From Leeuwenhoekiella sp. (GTDB lineage Bacteria; Bacteroidota; Bacteroidia; Flavobacteriales; Flavobacteriaceae): 33,557 bases of DNA. The notes beneath the pieces were generated by a model. The model was given only the letters and a program-made list of their open reading frames with translations, had not been told where the DNA came from and did not search any database. Location: assembly GCA_002708845.1 (NCBI GenBank), contig PAPI01000028.1, positions 1 to 33,557 on the forward strand, in the 5' to 3' direction. A program made the translations under genes and the position numbers. Of the stretch, positions 14,917 through 21,839 are shown piece by piece (the first letter of the stretch is position 1; each line of letters starts with the position of its first letter).

Positions 14917-15549
14917 GTGCCACTTTTCAAAACAATAACGCCAAATCCTACTACTACGGTTTACATCTGGAAGGTAGAAGAAAGCCTTGATGATTTGAAC
15001 CACAATGTGAATCTTACCCAGCATTGTAAGGTCCGTTTAAATAGTATGAAATCAGAACTCCACTGTCGGGGATTTTTGAGTATTAGACACCTGTTGCATG
15101 TTGCGGGATACACCGACCAGGATCTGTATTACACAGACAACGGGAAGCCACACTTAATCGATGGCAAACACATTTCAATCACCCACTCTTATAATTTTAC
15201 GGCAATCATTGTAAGTGAAAGTACTGAGGTAGGTATTGATATTGAAATGCAGCGCGATAAAATTCTGCGTATTGCCTCACGCTTTACGCCGCTCAAGGAG
15301 TATCATACGCTGGCTAATGAAGATGCATTGATACGAAAACTAACGATTGTTTGGGGTGCTAAAGAATCCCTATATAAAATTTACGGCGTCAAAGGACTTA
15401 GCTTTCTTCAGCACATCTATGTAGAAGATTTTGATTTTGAGGATTATAAAACCACGGCAAGTATTAATTACGAAGGCAATAAAAGTAATTATGCTATTGA
15501 TTTTTTGGAGTTTGAAGGCTTTACCTGTGTTTATGCCCTGGCGATATGA
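14917..15549 (+). CDS. 4'-phosphopantetheinyl transferase superfamily protein
   Basis: Enzymes of this family attach the phosphopantetheine arm of CoA to acyl or peptidyl carrier proteins. The 210-residue size fits the Sfp-type group, a pseudo-dimer. The metal-binding motif VGIDIE is at residues 105-110, and the second motif WGAKESLYK is at 146-154, including the conserved glutamate and lysine. HISITHSYNF (85-94) is the typical substrate-binding strand. The start is a GTG at 14917. Its stop overlaps the next gene by 4 bases (ATGA), so the two are translationally coupled. Whether the target is fatty-acid ACP or a secondary-metabolite carrier cannot be told. Confidence 0.9.
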   Translation: MPLFKTITPNPTTTVYIWKVEESLDDLNHNVNLTQHCKVRLNSMKSELHCRGFLSIRHLLHVAGYTDQDLYYTDNGKPHLIDGKHISITHSYNFTAIIVSESTEVGIDIEMQRDKILRIASRFTPLKEYHTLANEDALIRKLTIVWGAKESLYKIYGVKGLSFLQHIYVEDFDFEDYKTTASINYEGNKSNYAIDFLEFEGFTCVYALAI

Positions 15550-16277
15550 TCAGCAATTTTACGCATAGCGAAAGTGTCATCTACTCACAAATTGAACAGG
15601 CAGCAGCAATTGGGCAGCGCTGTTTTGCTATTCTTTTTGACCCTGAAGAAGTGACGGAAGAAGCTCTTATAAAACAGATAGAAGACTTACCGGATTATAC
15701 CACTCATCTTTTTGTTGGGGGAAGCACAGCTACCGAAGCACAAACTCAACTTACGGTGCGGGAGATTAAAAAGAAGACCGATTTGCCAGTAGTTCTTTTT
15801 CCGGGAGATCATAATCAGATAACCGCTGAAGCAGATGCCCTTCTCTTTTTAAGTTTGATTTCGGGTGAAAATCCCGAGTATCTCATTCGGCAACAAATTA
15901 AATCGGTGCAAAAGCTTAAAGATTCAACTTTAGAAATTATTCCTACTGGCTACATACTTATAGATGGCGGTGTTGAGACCGCAGTGCAACGCGTGAGTAA
16001 GACAGAACCGCTTGCACAGGATGATATTGAGCACATTGTAGCCGTGGCGCTGGCAGGCCAATATTCGGGTAAAAAACTGTTGTATCTGGAGGCTGGAAGT
16101 GGAGCTGTAAATCCGGTTTCTGTAGCTGTTATCAAAGCCGTGAAGCAGTATATTAGCATTCCACTTATTGTAGGTGGTGGTATCAGAACCCGCGAACAAT
16201 TGCAACGCGCATACGAGGCCGGGGCAGACCTTGTGGTTGTAGGCACCGCATTTGAAAATGGAAATTTCAGAACCTAA
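15546..16277 (+). CDS. Geranylgeranylglyceryl/heptaprenylglyceryl phosphate synthase
   Basis: This 243-residue TIM-barrel enzyme joins a long prenyl diphosphate to glycerol-1-phosphate, the reaction that starts archaeal ether lipids. Bacteroidetes carry their own group of this family. Diagnostic segments are FAILFDPEE (residues 28-36), FVGGSTATEAQ (56-66), PVVLFPGDHNQI, the prenyl-pocket segment LLFLSLISGENPEYLI, YLEAGSGA and the phosphate-binding VGGGIRTREQL, then GADLVVVGTAFE. It overlaps the upstream phosphopantetheinyl transferase by 4 bases and is 3 bases from the PnuC gene. The lipid product in bacteria of this group is not settled. Confidence 0.92.
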   Translation: MISNFTHSESVIYSQIEQAAAIGQRCFAILFDPEEVTEEALIKQIEDLPDYTTHLFVGGSTATEAQTQLTVREIKKKTDLPVVLFPGDHNQITAEADALLFLSLISGENPEYLIRQQIKSVQKLKDSTLEIIPTGYILIDGGVETAVQRVSKTEPLAQDDIEHIVAVALAGQYSGKKLLYLEAGSGAVNPVSVAVIKAVKQYISIPLIVGGGIRTREQLQRAYEAGADLVVVGTAFENGNFRT

Positions 16278-16280
16278 GCT

Positions 16281-16913
16281 ATGGCCGAAACACTCGATTT
16301 CCTTTTTGGGCAATACGCTGATTATGAGATGTCTTCCATTGTACTTGAGATTTTGGGCGTTATTTTCGGCTTACTCTCAGTCTGGTTTTCAAAGCAAAAT
16401 AATATTTGGGTGTATCCTACTGGGATGATTAGCACTTCATTTTATGTTTATTTATGTTTAAAATGGGGTTTTTTGGGCGATATGATGATCAATGCTTATT
16501 ATTTTTCGATGAGTGTTTACGGCTGTTACATCTGGACGCGCAAGGTAGATGCAGAGCACGTAACACCCATTACCAGAACTACGGTAAAAGAGCATCAGAT
16601 TTCAGCAATCCTATTTATCGCCACTATCGTTTTTGTCTTTATCGTGTATACGACTTTTGATAAGTGGAATGACTGGACGGCTTATGTAGATACGCTTACC
16701 ACAGCTATCTTCTTTGTAGGAATGTGGCTTATGGCACGCCGTAAGGTAGAAAATTGGATCTATTGGATTATTGGAGATGTGATTTCAGTACCGCTGTATT
16801 TTTACAAAGGTTTCACATTTACCAGTTTACAATATCTTATTTTTACTGTGCTTGCTATTTACGGCTATATCTCTTGGAAAAAATACCTGAACAACAAACC
16901 GGTAATTGCATAA
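16281..16913 (+). CDS. PnuC/PnuT-family vitamin transporter
   Basis: This 210-residue membrane protein belongs to the PnuC family, energy-independent carriers for nicotinamide riboside (PnuC), thiamine (PnuT) or riboflavin (PnuX). It has about seven hydrophobic helices. The conserved WVYPTGMISTSFYVYLCLKW and GDMMINAYYFSMSVYGCYIW (about residues 40-78) hold the aromatic and Asn residues that line the substrate site in this family. A second half repeats the pattern (NWIYWIIGDVISVPLYFYKG). The transported molecule is trapped by phosphorylation, and the next gene is a kinase. Because a TPP riboswitch lies 2.5 kb downstream, thiamine is a real alternative to nicotinamide riboside. I leave the symbol blank for this reason. 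Confidence 0.9.
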   Translation: MAETLDFLFGQYADYEMSSIVLEILGVIFGLLSVWFSKQNNIWVYPTGMISTSFYVYLCLKWGFLGDMMINAYYFSMSVYGCYIWTRKVDAEHVTPITRTTVKEHQISAILFIATIVFVFIVYTTFDKWNDWTAYVDTLTTAIFFVGMWLMARRKVENWIYWIIGDVISVPLYFYKGFTFTSLQYLIFTVLAIYGYISWKKYLNNKPVIA

Positions 16914-17434
16914 AAGTCGTACTCTTCGGTCCGGAGAGTACGGGCAAGACTACGCTTTCCCAAAAACTTTCAGAACATTACAACGGCACCTGGGTACCCG
17001 AATTTGCACGGGAGTACCTTCAGCAAAAATGGGATGAAGAGCAAAAAATCTGTGAACCCAAGGATATCTTTCCTATTGCGACAGGACAAATGAAATTGGA
17101 GAACACTGCTGTCAATTCCGAAGAAAAAATAGTATTTTGTGATACAGACCTCTTGGAAACAATGGTTTACAGTGAGGCCTATTTTGACGGTTGGTGCGAT
17201 GAGCGCGTACGGGAGGCAGCTTTGAATTCAAGATACGATCTGTATATTCTTACCTATATAGATGTACCCTGGCAAGCTGATGATCTTAGAGATCGACCGG
17301 GACAACGCGAAGAAATGTTCAGGCTTTTTGAACAGGCCCTAATTCAACACGACCGTCCTTATATGCTCGTTAAAGGTAATCTGGAGGAGCGCATAAAGCA
17401 AATTACAAATCAACTAAACACCAGACTCAATTGA
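16874..17434 (+). CDS. NadR-like ATPase/kinase (ribosylnicotinamide kinase domain type)
   Basis: The 186-residue product resembles the C-terminal kinase domain of NadR, which phosphorylates nicotinamide riboside. The Walker A GPESTGKT is at residues 19-26, VPEFAREYL at 41-49, and FCDTDLLET at 88-96, equivalent to the Walker B-like FIDTD of NadR. DDLRDRPGQRE near 137-147 may be the lid. The N-terminal nucleotidyltransferase domain of NadR is missing. No ATG is available. I place the start at a TTG at 16874, which overlaps the pnuC-like gene by 40 bases. An ATA at the pnuC stop codon is the only closer, weaker option. It overlaps the DUF4301 gene by 4 bases. The coupling with the transporter suggests metabolic trapping of the imported vitamin. 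Confidence 0.85.
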   Translation: MEKIPEQQTGNCIKVVLFGPESTGKTTLSQKLSEHYNGTWVPEFAREYLQQKWDEEQKICEPKDIFPIATGQMKLENTAVNSEEKIVFCDTDLLETMVYSEAYFDGWCDERVREAALNSRYDLYILTYIDVPWQADDLRDRPGQREEMFRLFEQALIQHDRPYMLVKGNLEERIKQITNQLNTRLN

Positions 17435-18975
17435 ACTTTACAGACCAGGAAATCAACGAAATTAAAAATCACGGATTAACCCTAGACCAGGTTAAATCGC
17501 AGATTGAATTATTTGTCAACGGGGTGCCTAATGTCAAACTTGTGGCGCCGGCCACCGTTTCTGATGGTATATTTAAATTGACAGACGATGCAGAGCTTCA
17601 GTACCTTGATGCTTATGAAAGAAAGAAGCAGGAACTTGACTTGCTAAAATTTACACCTGCTTCGGGCGCAGCCAGCCGTATGTTTAAAAAAATCTATCAG
17701 TTTCTGGAAGAATACAATCCCGAAAAAGAATCTATCGATGCCTTTTTAGAGCGCACAGGCGATAAACATATGCAGACATTTTTTGATGGTTACGAAAAGT
17801 TCCCGTTTTACCATCATATAATAGATAAGCTTGATAAATCGGTTTTGGAAGATGAAAACTCAAAGAAATACGCTTTTATCAAAACTATGATGGCTGCTGA
17901 CGGTGAAGATTACGGCAGTTTGCCCAAAGGCTTGATTCCTTTTCACTATTACGGCTGTTATAAAGCCACCGCCTTTGAAGAGCACCTGCACGAAGCTGCG
18001 GCTTACGCGGCCAAAAATGATCATGCCGCACTACATTTTACGGTTTCGCCAGAACATAAAGAAGCTTTTAAAAAAGAATACGATACCATTCATGCTTCGG
18101 TAAGCAATACCACAGGAGTAAATTTTGAAGTAAGCTATTCATTTCAGAAAGCGGAAACCGACACGGTAGCAGTCACGATGGATAATAAATTGTACCGCCA
18201 GGAAAACGGCGAGTTGTTATTTAGACCAGGTGGTCACGGTGCACTTATTGAAAATCTCAACGATGTGGATGCTGATTTGATCTTTATCAAAAATATTGAC
18301 AATGTTTTGGTACAGGATCAGATTCAGGCACTTGCACGCTCCAAGCGTATTTTGGCAGGATTACTTCTTGAGAAACAGGAGCAGGTTTTTAAATACGCCA
18401 AACTTCTTGATGAAGACAGCATCACAGATGCGCAGCTTGATGAGCTTGTAACATTTCTAAAAGAAGATTTTAGTACGCGTATTGATGAGGCCTATGCTGG
18501 TTTTTCGCAAAGCGAAAAGAAAACCTATTTGACTGAATTGCTTGATCGTCCTATTCGTGTTTGCGGAATGGTCAAAAATGAAGGCGAACCCGGTGGCGGT
18601 CCGTTTTGGGTTGAAGATGAAAGCGGAAAAGTGGCACTTCAGATCATCGAAAGTGCACAGGTAAACGATAAAGATGCAGATCAACAGGAGATTTTTAAGC
18701 AATCCACACACTTCAATCCGGTTGATATTGTTGCCGGAGTGCGTAATTACAAAGGTGAAAAGTACAATCTGCTCGATTATGTAAATCCGGATTTGGCCTT
18801 TATCGCTTATAAAACCGACGGCAGCAACGAGATAAAAGCCCTCGAACTTCCCGGTTTGTGGAATGGTGCCATGGCCCGATGGAACACCCTGTTTGTTGAG
18901 GTGCCTTTAGAAACCTTTAACCCGGTTAAAACCGTGAATGATTTATTAAAACCGGCTCATCAGGCGCAGTCTTAA
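17431..18975 (+). CDS. DUF4301 family protein, possibly nucleotidyltransferase-like
   Basis: This 514-residue cytoplasmic protein belongs to DUF4301, found mostly in Bacteroidetes, with no established function. I see motifs reminiscent of the UDP-sugar pyrophosphorylase fold. TPASGAASRMFK (residues 75-86) stands in the place of the glycine-rich nucleotide loop. RPGGHGALIENL (265-276) followed by DADLIFIKNIDNV (280-292) resembles the family signature GHGD...FVxNxDNL. LPKGLIPFHYYG (164-175) could be a substrate loop. This reading is inference. The start is a TTG at 17431 that overlaps the kinase stop by 4 bases. The next gene starts at its stop codon, so the set is one transcription unit. Confidence 0.85.
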   Translation: MNFTDQEINEIKNHGLTLDQVKSQIELFVNGVPNVKLVAPATVSDGIFKLTDDAELQYLDAYERKKQELDLLKFTPASGAASRMFKKIYQFLEEYNPEKESIDAFLERTGDKHMQTFFDGYEKFPFYHHIIDKLDKSVLEDENSKKYAFIKTMMAADGEDYGSLPKGLIPFHYYGCYKATAFEEHLHEAAAYAAKNDHAALHFTVSPEHKEAFKKEYDTIHASVSNTTGVNFEVSYSFQKAETDTVAVTMDNKLYRQENGELLFRPGGHGALIENLNDVDADLIFIKNIDNVLVQDQIQALARSKRILAGLLLEKQEQVFKYAKLLDEDSITDAQLDELVTFLKEDFSTRIDEAYAGFSQSEKKTYLTELLDRPIRVCGMVKNEGEPGGGPFWVEDESGKVALQIIESAQVNDKDADQQEIFKQSTHFNPVDIVAGVRNYKGEKYNLLDYVNPDLAFIAYKTDGSNEIKALELPGLWNGAMARWNTLFVEVPLETFNPVKTVNDLLKPAHQAQS

Positions 18976-19376
18976 TGAATAAAGAAATCCTGCAGTTTGA
19001 ATGTGAGTTTAAAGCGGTGCGTAGTAGTGGTCCCGGAGGGCAGCACGTAAATAAAACCTCGACCAAGGTTATGCTGCACTGGGACCTTGAAGCTTCAGCT
19101 GTTTTTACAGAAGATCAAAAAGAGCGTTTGCGGCATCGTTTGGCTTCAAAACTCACTACAGAGAACCAGTTGGTATTGTCTTATGATCAAAGCCGCAGTC
19201 AGCATAAAAACAAGGAAGAAGTTTTTAAAAATTTAGTTCAGCTGCTGGAAAAGGCTTTGGTAAAACCCAAAAAGCGAAAAAAGACCCGGCCTACTTTAGC
19301 TTCTAAGAAACGCCGGCTCGATTCTAAAAAGCGTAATGCGCAGAAAAAAGCAAATCGCAAGCCACCTGATTTTTGA
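18975..19376 (+). CDS. arfB: ArfB-type peptidyl-tRNA hydrolase (release factor-like)
   Basis: This 133-residue protein has the catalytic GGQ of class I release factors in SSGPGGQHVNKTSTKV (residues 17-32) but no codon-recognition domain. A very basic C-terminal tail follows (KKRKKTRPTLASKKRRLDSKKRN, pieces of about residues 97-125). In ArfB (YaeJ) this tail enters the empty mRNA channel of a stalled ribosome, and the GGQ then frees the peptide. Length and layout match ArfB. The ATG overlaps the stop of DUF4301 by one base. A terminator covers its stop codon, so it closes the operon that begins at 14917. Confidence 0.92.
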   Translation: MNKEILQFECEFKAVRSSGPGGQHVNKTSTKVMLHWDLEASAVFTEDQKERLRHRLASKLTTENQLVLSYDQSRSQHKNKEEVFKNLVQLLEKALVKPKKRKKTRPTLASKKRRLDSKKRNAQKKANRKPPDF

Positions 19377-19392
19377 GGTGGTTTCTTTTTTT
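19360..19392 (+). terminator. Terminator overlapping the arfB stop codon
   Basis: GCCACCT and AGGTGGT pair (one G-T wobble) around a T-rich loop that contains the stop codon, followed by TTTCTTTTTTT. It separates the upstream operon from the riboswitch-controlled gene. Confidence 0.85.
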
Positions 19393-19410
19393 AAGAAGAA
19401 TTTATTGCCT

Positions 19411-19418
19411 TACATTTG
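19411..19418 (+). promoter_or_regulatory. -7 promoter element of the TPP-regulated receptor gene
   Basis: TACATTTG matches TAnnTTTG. Transcription would start at about 19423, a few bases before the riboswitch. No clear TTTG is visible at -33; that place is the T-run of the preceding terminator. Confidence 0.65.
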
Positions 19419-19427
19419 CCGCCTAAT

Positions 19428-19515
19428 CTCAAAGGGGTGCTTAAACTTCCGGTAAAACGGAAAGCGAGCTGAGATCATACCCAATGAACCTGGGCGGATA
19501 ATGCCGCCAAGGGAA
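19428..19515 (+). ncRNA. TPP riboswitch (THI element)
   Basis: The aptamer blocks appear in order: GGGGTGC (19434-19440), a P3-like hairpin TTCCG/CGGAA (19447-19462), GCTGAGAT (19468-19475), ACCC (19479-19482), then TGAACCTGGGCGGATAATGC (19485-19504) and AAGGGA (19509-19514). These are the two thiamine-pyrophosphate-binding arms. The outer P1 stem looks weak. It lies between a -7 element and a TonB-dependent receptor gene, so it should lower receptor expression when TPP is plentiful. Confidence 0.95.
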
Positions 19516-19547
19516 TGCTTAAAAACGGTGACGACCGTATTTAAGCA
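19516..19547 (+). promoter_or_regulatory. Long hairpin directly after the TPP aptamer
   Basis: TGCTTAAA pairs with TTTAAGCA, and inside it ACGGT pairs with ACCGT, with one A-A mismatch and a GACG loop, for 13 base pairs in all. No T-run follows, so it is not a standard terminator. The left arm TGCTTAAA also occurs at 19438-19445 inside the aptamer, so the right arm could pair with either copy. Confidence 0.75.
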
Positions 19548-19594
19548 ACATTGCATTTATTAACTAATAGTAACACAGAATAATTGCCCCTTTT

Positions 19595-19618
19595 ATTCGT
19601 AAAAATCATTTTACGAAT
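19595..19618 (+). promoter_or_regulatory. Hairpin enclosing the receptor start codon
   Basis: ATTCGTAAAA (19595-19604) and TTTTACGAAT (19609-19618) are a perfect 10-bp stem with an ATCA loop. The last two paired bases are the A and T of the start codon ATG at 19617. It is probably part of the expression platform of the TPP riboswitch, acting on translation. Confidence 0.7.
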
Positions 19619-21839
19619 GAAAACTCTTTTATTCGCCTGTGCTGCCAGCCTAACAACTTTTGGCGCACTCGCACAACAAAAACCGGTCATAGACACGACC
19701 GAAGTCAACAAACTCGATGAGGTTCTGGTGCAATCCATACGGGTTGATGCCGACTCTCCAATTACCTACAGCAATCTTTCCAAGCAGGAAATCGAAGAGC
19801 GTAACCTGGGTCAGGATTTACCCATTTTACTCAATTACCTGCCTAGTGTGGTGACTACATCAGACGCCGGAGCAGGTGTTGGATATACGGGCTTTCGCGT
19901 CCGCGGAACCGGGAATCAGGGTATTAATGTGACCATTAACGGTATTCCCTATAATGACGCTGAAAGTCTGGGAAGCTTTTTTGTAAACCTGCAGGATTTT
20001 AGCAGTTCTATTCAAAGTGTGCAATTGCAGCGTGGGGTGGGAACTTCAACCAACGGAGCCGGGGCATTTGGTGCCAGCTTGAACATTTTGACCGATGCTT
20101 CAGACGATAAAGCCTATGCTGAAGTGAATGCTTCCGGAGGTTCGTTCAACACCCGCAGGGCTAATGTGAAATTTGGAACCGGTCTGATTAATGAGCATTT
20201 CAGTTTTTCCGGAAGGCTTTCGGCTATAAAATCAGACGGCTACGTAGATCGCGCCAGTTCTGATCTTAAATCCTATTTTTTACAGGGATCTTACCGCGAT
20301 GAAAACACCCTACTTAAAGCCATCGTTTTTGGCGGGCACGAGATTACGTATCAAAGCTGGAATGGCATTGATGCCGAAACCTTAGCAACAGACCGCACCT
20401 TTAATCCTATTGGGTTTGAGTATGATGATGAAGGCAATTTTGAGGGTTTTTACAACAATCAGGTAGATAATTACAAGCAGGATCACGTTCAATTACTGTG
20501 GAACCAAAAATACGGCGGCGGCTGGTCTACCAATCTGGCCCTGAACTATACTATGGGTCGCGGCTATTTCGAGGAATATGTAGATTCCTGGTATTATGCA
20601 AATGTCAATTTTTCGGATGACGCCACTTTTGAATACATTGGCTGGGAGCCGTATGAAGTAGATGGCGAGCTGCAAACCGATACCGATCTCATTCGCCGTC
20701 GTTGGCTCGACAACCGCTATTACGTAGCCAATTTGACTACCAATTATTCCGACGAGAACATCGATTTTGATGCTGGGGTTTTTGGAAGTATTTATAGTGG
20801 GGATCATTATGGTGAAATCACCTGGGCCCGTTATTTTTCACAGACCGAAGAAGCCGGGTACCGTTATTATTTTGGTACAGCAGATAAAGACGAGTTTACC
20901 ACGTTTGCCAAAGCTACCTGGAGAATTGACGAGACCTGGAGTATTTTTGGAGATATACAGGGACGTTTCATTGACTACAGTACCGACGGTTTAGGAGATG
21001 ATGTGACTGAGTTTGTGGTTGATGAAAACTATGCGTTTTTTAATCCTAAAGCCGGCGTGACCATCACCTTAGATGAATCAAACAAAATATATGCTTCCTA
21101 TGCCCGTGCAAACCGGGAGCCCAACCGTACTGATTTTGAAAACGGAAATCCCATACCTGAAAGCCTTAACGATTTTGAGCTGGGATATCGTTTTACTCAG
21201 GATCGGGCTCGTGTGTATGCAAATGTGTATTATATGGATTACCGCAACCAACTCGTGCTTACCGGTGCTATAGACGATGTAGGCGCACCTATACGTCAAA
21301 ACAGCGGGTCAAGTTACAGACTGGGTCTCGAGATTGAAGCCGGAGTCGAACTGATACCTGGTCTTCTGGCTACCACGCCCAATATCGCTTTGAGTACCAA
21401 TAAAAACCGGGATTTTTTCTTTGAGCGCGATGGTGAATTGCGGAATTTGGGCAATACCAATATCTCGTATTCGCCTAATGTGGTTGCCGCAAACCGCTTT
21501 GATGTTTTTCCTATGGAAGGTTTACGTCTCTCTTTATTATCTAAATATGTTGGAGAACAATACCTGGGGAATATCGATGCAGAAAGCTCAAAACTGGATG
21601 CCTATTTTGTAAACGACTTCAATGCGCAATATGAATTAGGCGAATTGGGTTTTGCAAAATCGGTTACATTAACCCTGTTAGTCAATAATTTCTTGTGTGA
21701 AGAATACGTATCAAACGGCTATTTTTTCACCTATGATGATGACTTTACCGATCCGGGAACGATTACAACCATTGAGGGGACGGGCTATTATCCGCAGGCG
21801 AAAATCAACTTTTTAATAGGAGCATCGGTACGATTTTAG
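19617..21839 (+). CDS. TonB-dependent outer-membrane receptor under TPP riboswitch control (probable thiamine uptake)
   Basis: This 740-residue outer-membrane receptor has a signal peptide (MKTLLFACAASLTTFGALAQ) and a TonB-box-like LDEVLVQS (residues 33-40). The plug domain includes GFRVRGTGNQGINVTINGIPYNDAES and the QLQRGVGTSTNGAGAFGASL strand. A beta-barrel follows and ends in the aromatic terminus IGASVRF. It lacks the carboxypeptidase-like N-terminal domain of SusC-type receptors, so it looks like a small-molecule receptor. The TPP riboswitch upstream makes thiamine or its phosphates the likely cargo; this corresponds to the OMR receptors described for Bacteroidetes thiamine regulons. I chose the ATG at 19617 over an in-frame TTG at 19584, because it gives a clean signal peptide. 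A strong terminator follows. Confidence 0.93.
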   Translation: MKTLLFACAASLTTFGALAQQKPVIDTTEVNKLDEVLVQSIRVDADSPITYSNLSKQEIEERNLGQDLPILLNYLPSVVTTSDAGAGVGYTGFRVRGTGNQGINVTINGIPYNDAESLGSFFVNLQDFSSSIQSVQLQRGVGTSTNGAGAFGASLNILTDASDDKAYAEVNASGGSFNTRRANVKFGTGLINEHFSFSGRLSAIKSDGYVDRASSDLKSYFLQGSYRDENTLLKAIVFGGHEITYQSWNGIDAETLATDRTFNPIGFEYDDEGNFEGFYNNQVDNYKQDHVQLLWNQKYGGGWSTNLALNYTMGRGYFEEYVDSWYYANVNFSDDATFEYIGWEPYEVDGELQTDTDLIRRRWLDNRYYVANLTTNYSDENIDFDAGVFGSIYSGDHYGEITWARYFSQTEEAGYRYYFGTADKDEFTTFAKATWRIDETWSIFGDIQGRFIDYSTDGLGDDVTEFVVDENYAFFNPKAGVTITLDESNKIYASYARANREPNRTDFENGNPIPESLNDFELGYRFTQDRARVYANVYYMDYRNQLVLTGAIDDVGAPIRQNSGSSYRLGLEIEAGVELIPGLLATTPNIALSTNKNRDFFFERDGELRNLGNTNISYSPNVVAANRFDVFPMEGLRLSLLSKYVGEQYLGNIDAESSKLDAYFVNDFNAQYELGELGFAKSVTLTLLVNNFLCEEYVSNGYFFTYDDDFTDPGTITTIEGTGYYPQAKINFLIGASVRF

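Follow-up and report, generated by a model that had tools for sequence, protein, structure and literature searches.

We analysed a 33,557-nucleotide stretch of DNA from Leeuwenhoekiella sp. (assembly GCA_002708845.1, contig PAPI01000028.1), hereafter called the window, and concentrated on a cluster at positions 16281 to 21839. It encodes a carrier of the PnuC family, a kinase resembling the kinase part of NadR, a DUF4301 protein and, behind a thiamine pyrophosphate (TPP) riboswitch, a TonB-dependent receptor. This cluster is likely to serve the import and trapping of thiamine, the kinase standing in for thiamine pyrophosphokinase (TPK) by forming thiamine monophosphate (TMP), with the DUF4301 protein as an accessory. 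The enzyme that traps the vitamin probably represents a type of thiamine kinase not assigned before. The features of the cluster are the following.

16281..16913, + strand: inner-membrane carrier of the PnuC fold family, most likely PnuT-like (thiamine); PF04973, 185.9 bits (cut-off 27.3)
16874..17434, + strand: stand-alone P-loop kinase like the RNK domain of NadR (KIN), proposed TMP-forming thiamine kinase; PF13521 (AAA_28), 147.6 bits
17431..18975, + strand: DUF4301 protein, predicted GT-A nucleotidyltransferase resembling the UDPGP superfamily, optional accessory; PF14134, 684.7 bits
18975..19376, + strand: ArfB ribosome-rescue hydrolase; NF006718, 134.5 bits (cut-off 100)
19423..19531, + strand: TPP riboswitch, 5' of the receptor gene; RF00059, 41.7 bits
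19617..21839, + strand: TonB-dependent outer-membrane receptor, proposed thiamine receptor of the OMthi/omr1 type; PF00593 and PF07715

The kinase start, a TTG at 16874, was placed by homology with relatives, and the receptor ATG at 19617 was chosen by eye. The parts named in an initial annotation of the window (PnuC, kinase, DUF4301 and receptor) were all confirmed by Pfam matches. As it had noted, the carrier, kinase and DUF4301 genes overlap, by 40 and 4 bases, and the DUF4301 gene shares 1 base with that of ArfB; the overlaps suggest that carrier, kinase and DUF4301 protein are produced together. The receptor had been described as adjoining them, and a TPP riboswitch does precede its gene, but ArfB lies between DUF4301 and the riboswitch. 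Two cargoes had been proposed. Thiamine, the carrier then being PnuT and the kinase a new one, is favoured by gene context, phylogenetic profile and the carrier tree, whereas nicotinamide riboside (NR) is weaker, since true NadR, with its nicotinamide mononucleotide adenylyltransferase (NMNAT) domain, keeps other company.

For the profile, we searched 148 genomes of the phylum (sample 1) and a class sample of 149 genomes (sample 2), 130 of them new (G148-G277), 278 genomes in all. Kinases were counted from 130 bits up in sample 1 and at E values up to 1e-20 in sample 2; a gene given as not found in a genome may reflect an assembly gap or a divergent gene. Sample 1 contained PnuC in 62 genomes, TPK in 72, a strong kinase match in 39, ThiL above its cut-off in 111 and ThiC in 48. 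Genomes with NadR only (G013, G034, G131, G096 and G236), which has an NMNAT-like domain, were excluded from KIN, and this exclusion weakens the Fisher value of sample 1 from 4.8e-11 to 1e-7. The 62 PnuC genomes of sample 1 then comprise 30 with KIN only, 22 with TPK only, 5 with both and 5 with neither. For the 81 new genomes with PnuC the corresponding figures are 57, 20, 0 and 4 (Fisher 2.3e-15; like the value for sample 1, it ignores kinship); before the exclusion, exactly one of kinase and TPK was present in 78 of these 81, both in none and neither in 3, with the kinase in 58 new genomes. Combined, the 143 PnuC genomes include 87 with KIN only, 42 with TPK only, 5 with both and 9 with neither, and KIN without PnuC was seen in none of 92 genomes.

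ThiL was present in all 35 stand-alone KIN genomes of sample 1, and the 37 genomes without ThiL above cut-off had TPK in 35 cases and KIN in none, a distribution that fits a KIN supplying the monophosphate that ThiL requires. In the window genome, 98% complete, ThiL is present (312 bits), and ThiC, TPK and a ThiK-type kinase (TIGR02721) were not found. ThiC was also lacking in 28 of the 30 KIN-only genomes of sample 1, which counts for thiamine salvage but would suit as well a cargo other than thiamine itself, namely a vitamer such as hydroxymethylpyrimidine (HMP) or hydroxyethylthiazole. In some loci the cluster is followed by ThiC, ThiD-like and TMP-synthase-like genes, and the exclusivity with TPK is equally compatible with a pyrophosphokinase forming TPP in one step. 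We consider such a vitamer cargo or one-step kinase unlikely. TPK, which KIN replaces, acts on thiamine itself, and one locus (L202, in the order PcrB-PnuC-KIN-DUF4301-TPP-ThiC-TMP synthase-like-ThiD-like) has a ThiD-like gene of its own in the same stretch as KIN. The retention of ThiL in the stand-alone KIN genomes also argues against it, though weakly within PnuC genomes.

Gene neighbourhoods were examined at places partly picked by hand. Of the 73 listed PnuC places of sample 1, 65 were fetched with flanks of about 5 kb (those of G143, G046, G077, G100, G054, G038 and G025 and a weak one of G064 were left out); 20 hand-chosen PnuC places of the second sample were added, as well as 20 kinase places over both samples, mostly with the kinase away from PnuC. 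A TPP riboswitch on the same strand within 6.5 kb downstream, each with a receptor gene, was found at 22 of the 50 stand-alone KIN places, a figure that is not a random-sample rate because of this choice, and at none of the nine NadR-type places (Fisher 0.02). Fifteen of the 22 have no DUF4301 in the stretch. Eight (L279, L284-L289 and L293) have no adjacent PnuC, and these weigh most, for here kinase and receptor are linked with no carrier between them to explain it. Mirror loci carry TPK, in the orders TPP-receptor-PnuC-TPK (L175, L176) and TPP-receptor-TPK-PnuC (L133), and three loci of the TPP-receptor-PnuC/TPK kind have receptors that score 807-818 bits with a profile seeded with the window receptor.

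The kinase contains the RNK-type P-loop domain and, as the initial annotation held, lacks the nucleotidyltransferase domain of NadR. Pfam finds AAA_28 in it and neither NMNAT nor the catalytic domain of TPK (PF04263), and the NadR model TIGR01526 reaches 108 bits against a cut-off of 341.15, over the kinase part only. Twelve open frames were checked for NMNAT with Pfam: nine gave an NMNAT-like CTP_transf_like match (that of L147, in G096, below cut-off), and L124, L137 and L136 gave none; all other KINs were called stand-alone from open-frame length alone. Position 33 of the domain, counted in the aligned stretch of the window kinase, is G in 7 of 10 NadR domains and A in 44 of 50 KINs; position 125 is G in 9 of the 10 and P, D or E in 47 of the 50. 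NadR and KIN are not simply interchangeable, as four genomes (G049, G146, G271 and G072) carry both. Two other arrangements of the kinase gene were observed. In G099 (L282 2621-5146) it starts a few bases 3' of a gene for the E1 component of a TPP-dependent dehydrogenase (E1_dh, Transket_pyr, Transketolase_C), a context that, like the gene order of L202, speaks for thiamine. In G072 (L136 3666-5159) its open frame also encodes a C-terminal aldose 1-epimerase domain.

The homology of the kinase to the RNK domain of NadR supports NR salvage, in which PnuC would import NR, the kinase would form nicotinamide mononucleotide (NMN), and either a separate adenylyltransferase or an NMN deamidase with NadD would lead to NAD, the receptor being an unrelated neighbour. 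The same reading is favoured by the match of the carrier to an NR-transporter model, by the absence of a TPP riboswitch upstream of the window PnuC and by another, TPP-switched PnuC in the genome. It nevertheless appears rather unlikely. KIN replaces TPK over the 143 PnuC genomes, the eight PnuC-free KIN places stand by a TPP-switched receptor, and the G residues typical of NadR domains at positions 33 and 125 are mostly replaced in KINs. NMNAT-bearing NadR was found near a TPP riboswitch in none of nine cases, and three such NadR proteins pair with carriers like that of E. coli.

This last point comes from a quick tree of 81 PnuC proteins with SH-aLRT support only. The window carrier falls in a clade of 42 of the 81 rows (starred in the tree, support 99), where five TPK-adjacent carriers, TPP-switched second carriers and 19 KIN-adjacent carriers are interleaved. 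E. coli PnuC, an NR reference, groups (98) with the carriers of L140, L146 and L180, each beside an NMNAT-bearing NadR; these three are among the kinase-adjacent carriers outside the clade. E. coli and N. mucosa PnuC both lie outside it, and the window carrier groups with those linked to TPK or to TPP riboswitches. Other kinase-linked and TPK-linked carriers fall outside it with weak support. Judged by its sequence relationships, the window carrier is most likely PnuT-like and thiamine-specific. Parsimony on this tree gives 14 changes of KIN and 13 of TPK, with seven branches shared, all seven in opposite directions (p 2.3e-5 under random placement; 72 of the 81 rows after the two references and the NadR-linked rows were dropped, one quick tree, midpoint rooting, one most-parsimonious mapping).

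Several observations, besides the disregard of kinship in the Fisher values, weigh against thiamine as the cargo and TMP as the product. The carrier passes the NCBIfam NR-transporter model TIGR01528 (101.6 bits against 42.45), and the closest solved structures to the kinase are those of NadR (four matched, E 1.6e-14 to 1.9e-9). In the tree, N. mucosa PnuC, the second NR reference, stands alone on a long branch and not with E. coli PnuC; 15 of the 33 kinase-adjacent carriers of TPK-less genomes lie inside the 42-row clade and the rest outside; and a sign test on the starred branches, with three independent pairs, too few for significance, finds opposite changes in 2.3 on average and same changes in 0 (median p 0.5). 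The second, TPP-switched PnuC of the window genome, which has no adjacent kinase, could instead be the thiamine carrier. As to context, at 28 of the 50 KIN places the examined stretch shows no TPP riboswitch up to 6.5 kb away (two have one at about 7 kb), one of the other 22 (L182) depends on a weak TPP match (23.6 bits), and the kinase is solitary in G049, G146, G007 and G037, where no thiamine gene was seen nearby by eye. KIN and TPK occur together, seemingly redundantly, in five of the six genomes of one genus (g2), the sixth having TPK and no kinase, and both are missing from nine of the 143 PnuC genomes. The ThiL contrast, finally, is weak when taken within PnuC genomes, 35 of 35 against 19 of 22 (p 0.053).

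Taking both sides together, we favour the following route. The TPP-switched TonB receptor (19617-21839) would bring thiamine across the outer membrane, as its riboswitch and family suggest, and the PnuT-like carrier (16281-16913) would pass it over the inner membrane by facilitated diffusion, as expected from its family. The NMNAT-less NadR-like kinase (16874-17434) would then use ATP to convert thiamine to TMP, trapping the cargo and playing the part that falls to TPK elsewhere in the phylum. ThiL, whose gene lies at another place in the genome, would make TPP, which in turn would close the receptor riboswitch. The DUF4301 protein, although coupled to the kinase gene, would be dispensable for this route.

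A thiamine uptake set is known from Bacteroides, and its Tnr3 we take to be a TPK. OMthi, pnuT and tnr3 often form one operon there, and in a strain lacking thiamine synthesis the loss of the carrier or the receptor raises the thiamine need about tenfold (PMC5613172). The window resembles this set in having a TPP-switched TonB receptor, a PnuT-type carrier and a putative thiamine-phosphorylating enzyme; it differs in that a NadR-RNK-like P-loop kinase takes the place of the TPK-type enzyme and in that the riboswitch stands before the receptor only. With PnuC-NadR uptake of NR (PMC7221760) it shares a PnuC-fold carrier and an RNK-family kinase for metabolic trapping. Unlike that system, it has a kinase without NMNAT and a carrier of another clade, and it goes with TPP riboswitches and with a lack of TPK. 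Like ThiK and TPK, the window kinase is proposed to phosphorylate imported thiamine; unlike them, it belongs to the AAA_28 P-loop family. A gut-microbiome survey names ThiK, ThiM and ThiN as signature enzymes of B1 salvage (PMC6593275), and among the papers listed from the literature within reach, which excluded most subscription journals, none was seen to assign a NadR-like kinase to thiamine.

Many genomes of this phylum combine a PnuC-type carrier and TPP riboswitches with a lack of TPK (KIN without TPK in 87 of the 278 sampled), and 28 of the 30 such genomes tested for ThiC lack it too, which leaves a gap at the phosphorylation of imported thiamine. A thiamine kinase derived from NadR would close it. 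It would also correct the annotation as NadR and NR salvage to which the TIGR01526 and TIGR01528 matches point in the window, and a single enzyme assay could then put predictions of B1 dependence to the test. In the field the trapping step is relevant because omr1 and pnuC dominate the B1 uptake transcripts of Bacteroidetes in the Baltic Sea (PMC12442306).

The TPP element of the window scores 41.7 bits, below the Rfam gathering score of 54.3, and an Rfam scan of the window at gathering level gave no match. Its E value is 5.9e-7 for its 401 bases and 1.5e-6 for the whole genome. It has the conserved aptamer core and stands before a thiamine-type gene: it keeps all 23 columns that do not vary among 25 other TPP sequences from the sampled genomes, and of seven further columns conserved at 90-99% it keeps four and departs at three. 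A TPP model (R1) scores it at 65.8 bits, with the element itself in the training set beside the second element of the genome and five others from fetched loci. Taken by itself, the element has an ordinary folding energy (z -1.29). It is the single TPP match in the window at E values up to 1 and stands before the receptor, with none 5' of PnuC; no riboswitch is therefore apparent for the genes of carrier, kinase and DUF4301 themselves, and control of carrier and kinase by a riboswitch in the window was rejected.

The window genome carries two TPP riboswitches. The second (L042 8754-10547, C20:144753 onwards) precedes the second PnuC-type carrier, whose gene overlaps an acyl-CoA-dehydrogenase-like gene (Pfam matches below cut-off; a flavoenzyme-like protein that may take part in salvage of thiamine or a vitamer); this pair recurs in six of the seven carriers of the second PnuC's clade. 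Tandem TPP matches were seen in four loci (L139 6555-6749, L174 6184-6376, L138 5570-5765 and L143 4573-4762), before a receptor in two and before a second PnuC in two; three of these loci have a weak second match (24-26 bits).

DUF4301 is present in 26 of the 148 genomes of sample 1. It stands beside PnuC in 12, all of the window's family, with the kinase as well in 11, and it lies away from carrier and kinase (within 1.5 kb) in 14, belonging to six other families; wider flanks of about 6-9 kb confirm the separation in 13 of those 14. The company of DUF4301 had been set beforehand as a refutation test, and this count goes against its proposed part in the route; nor does the locus provide DUF4301 with the first function once claimed for it, the protein being so often separate from carrier and kinase. 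Carrier-kinase pairs outside the window's family are mostly without DUF4301, and three loci inside it (L141, L142 and L154) keep PnuC and KIN without it. DUF4301 is therefore not part of the core route, and its role as a necessary step was rejected.

Closer relatives were examined in the best 80 of at least 586 named DUF4301 loci, which lean to Flavobacteriaceae and of which some are short; the nearest, among the matches listed, is Leeuwenhoekiella marinoflava (83% identity). PnuC lies beside DUF4301 in 69, DUF4301 is alone in ten, and the sequence of one (L233) starts with the gene itself. In 66 of the 69 a TPP riboswitch lies shortly before a receptor gene on the same strand; its distance from the cluster is at most about 1.2 kb in 49 loci and about 4.6-6.1 kb in 17. 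Two of the three exceptions (L205 and L234) have no TPP element in the stretch examined, the third is L202, with its riboswitch before ThiC, and none of the ten solitary DUF4301 loci gave a TPP match. In one locus (L239) a TPP riboswitch and ThiC lie 3' of the receptor. A single open frame encodes both KIN and DUF4301 in 17 of the 80, 14 of them named Flavobacterium, and PnuC and DUF4301 occur without the kinase in six, all Flavobacterium.

The initial annotation saw nucleotidyltransferase-like motifs in DUF4301 and was right in this, but the protein folds like UDP-sugar pyrophosphorylases and stands outside the core route. On its predicted model (mean pLDDT 94.0), DUF4301 is a nucleotidyltransferase with the GT-A pyrophosphorylase fold of the UDPGP superfamily. 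The best solved folds are UDP-glucose and UDP-N-acetylglucosamine pyrophosphorylases, and the top 48 of the 50 listed are UDP-sugar pyrophosphorylases. The sequence is more distant: the window protein scores 16.4 bits with PF01704 (UDPGP) against a cut-off of 22, and 10 of 20 DUF4301 members match this model at E values up to 10 (best 2.1e-4). The stretch FxPVKTxxDLL aligns with the UGPases 7ppr, 8c0b and 2i5k in weak matches (E 0.14-1.1), and its lysine is presumably the catalytic one. One DUF4301 profile (A3) gave seven weak PDB sequence matches and a narrower one (A4) none. Most likely, DUF4301 moves a nucleoside monophosphate onto a phosphorylated, probably sugar-like, substrate. It is set apart from the UDPGP superfamily by its PF01704 match below cut-off and by the overlap of its gene with that of a vitamin-salvage kinase. 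In the accessible literature it appeared in one paper, in one row of a rumen protein table (PMC7035244). Seen as a nucleotidyltransferase of defined fold, the so far unassigned DUF4301 would leave a smaller range of substrates to consider.

The gene overlaps, the 17 shared open frames and this fold could also mean that DUF4301 is an obligate second step, forming a dinucleotide, either NAD or adenylated thiamine, from what the kinase has made. We regard this as quite improbable in view of the 14 genomes with a separate DUF4301, the three loci keeping PnuC-KIN without it, the six keeping PnuC-DUF4301 without KIN and the preponderance of UDP-sugar pyrophosphorylases among the related folds. More specifically, coupled or fused KIN-DUF4301 might phosphorylate thiamine and then add a nucleotidyl group, giving adenylated or uridylylated thiamine in analogy to NR, NMN and NAD; KIN-DUF4301 would then be the first gene assigned to the making of a thiamine nucleotide. 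Adenosine thiamine triphosphate does exist in E. coli (PMC1976097). This idea is highly improbable, being weakened by the occurrence of DUF4301 without the kinase.

Elsewhere DUF4301 has other neighbours. In family f8 (L030 6924-10850, L031 4440-8378) it lies directly 3' of CT_A_B, CT_C_D and LamB_YcsF genes (in L031 by sequence clustering), which we take to be 5-oxoprolinase (pxp) genes, and in family f14 its neighbours are cation-efflux genes. ArfB, present in 54 of the 80 nearest named loci, is a conserved neighbour outside the thiamine route. In Leeuwenhoekiella marinoflava (L196 11099-14945) a sigma-54-type response regulator and a hybrid histidine kinase stand between ArfB and the TPP riboswitch with its receptor. 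Immediately 5' of PnuC (window 14917-16277) lie a phosphopantetheinyl transferase gene and then a PcrB/GGGP-synthase-like gene, and PcrB neighbours the cluster in many related loci, some of them outside the window's family.

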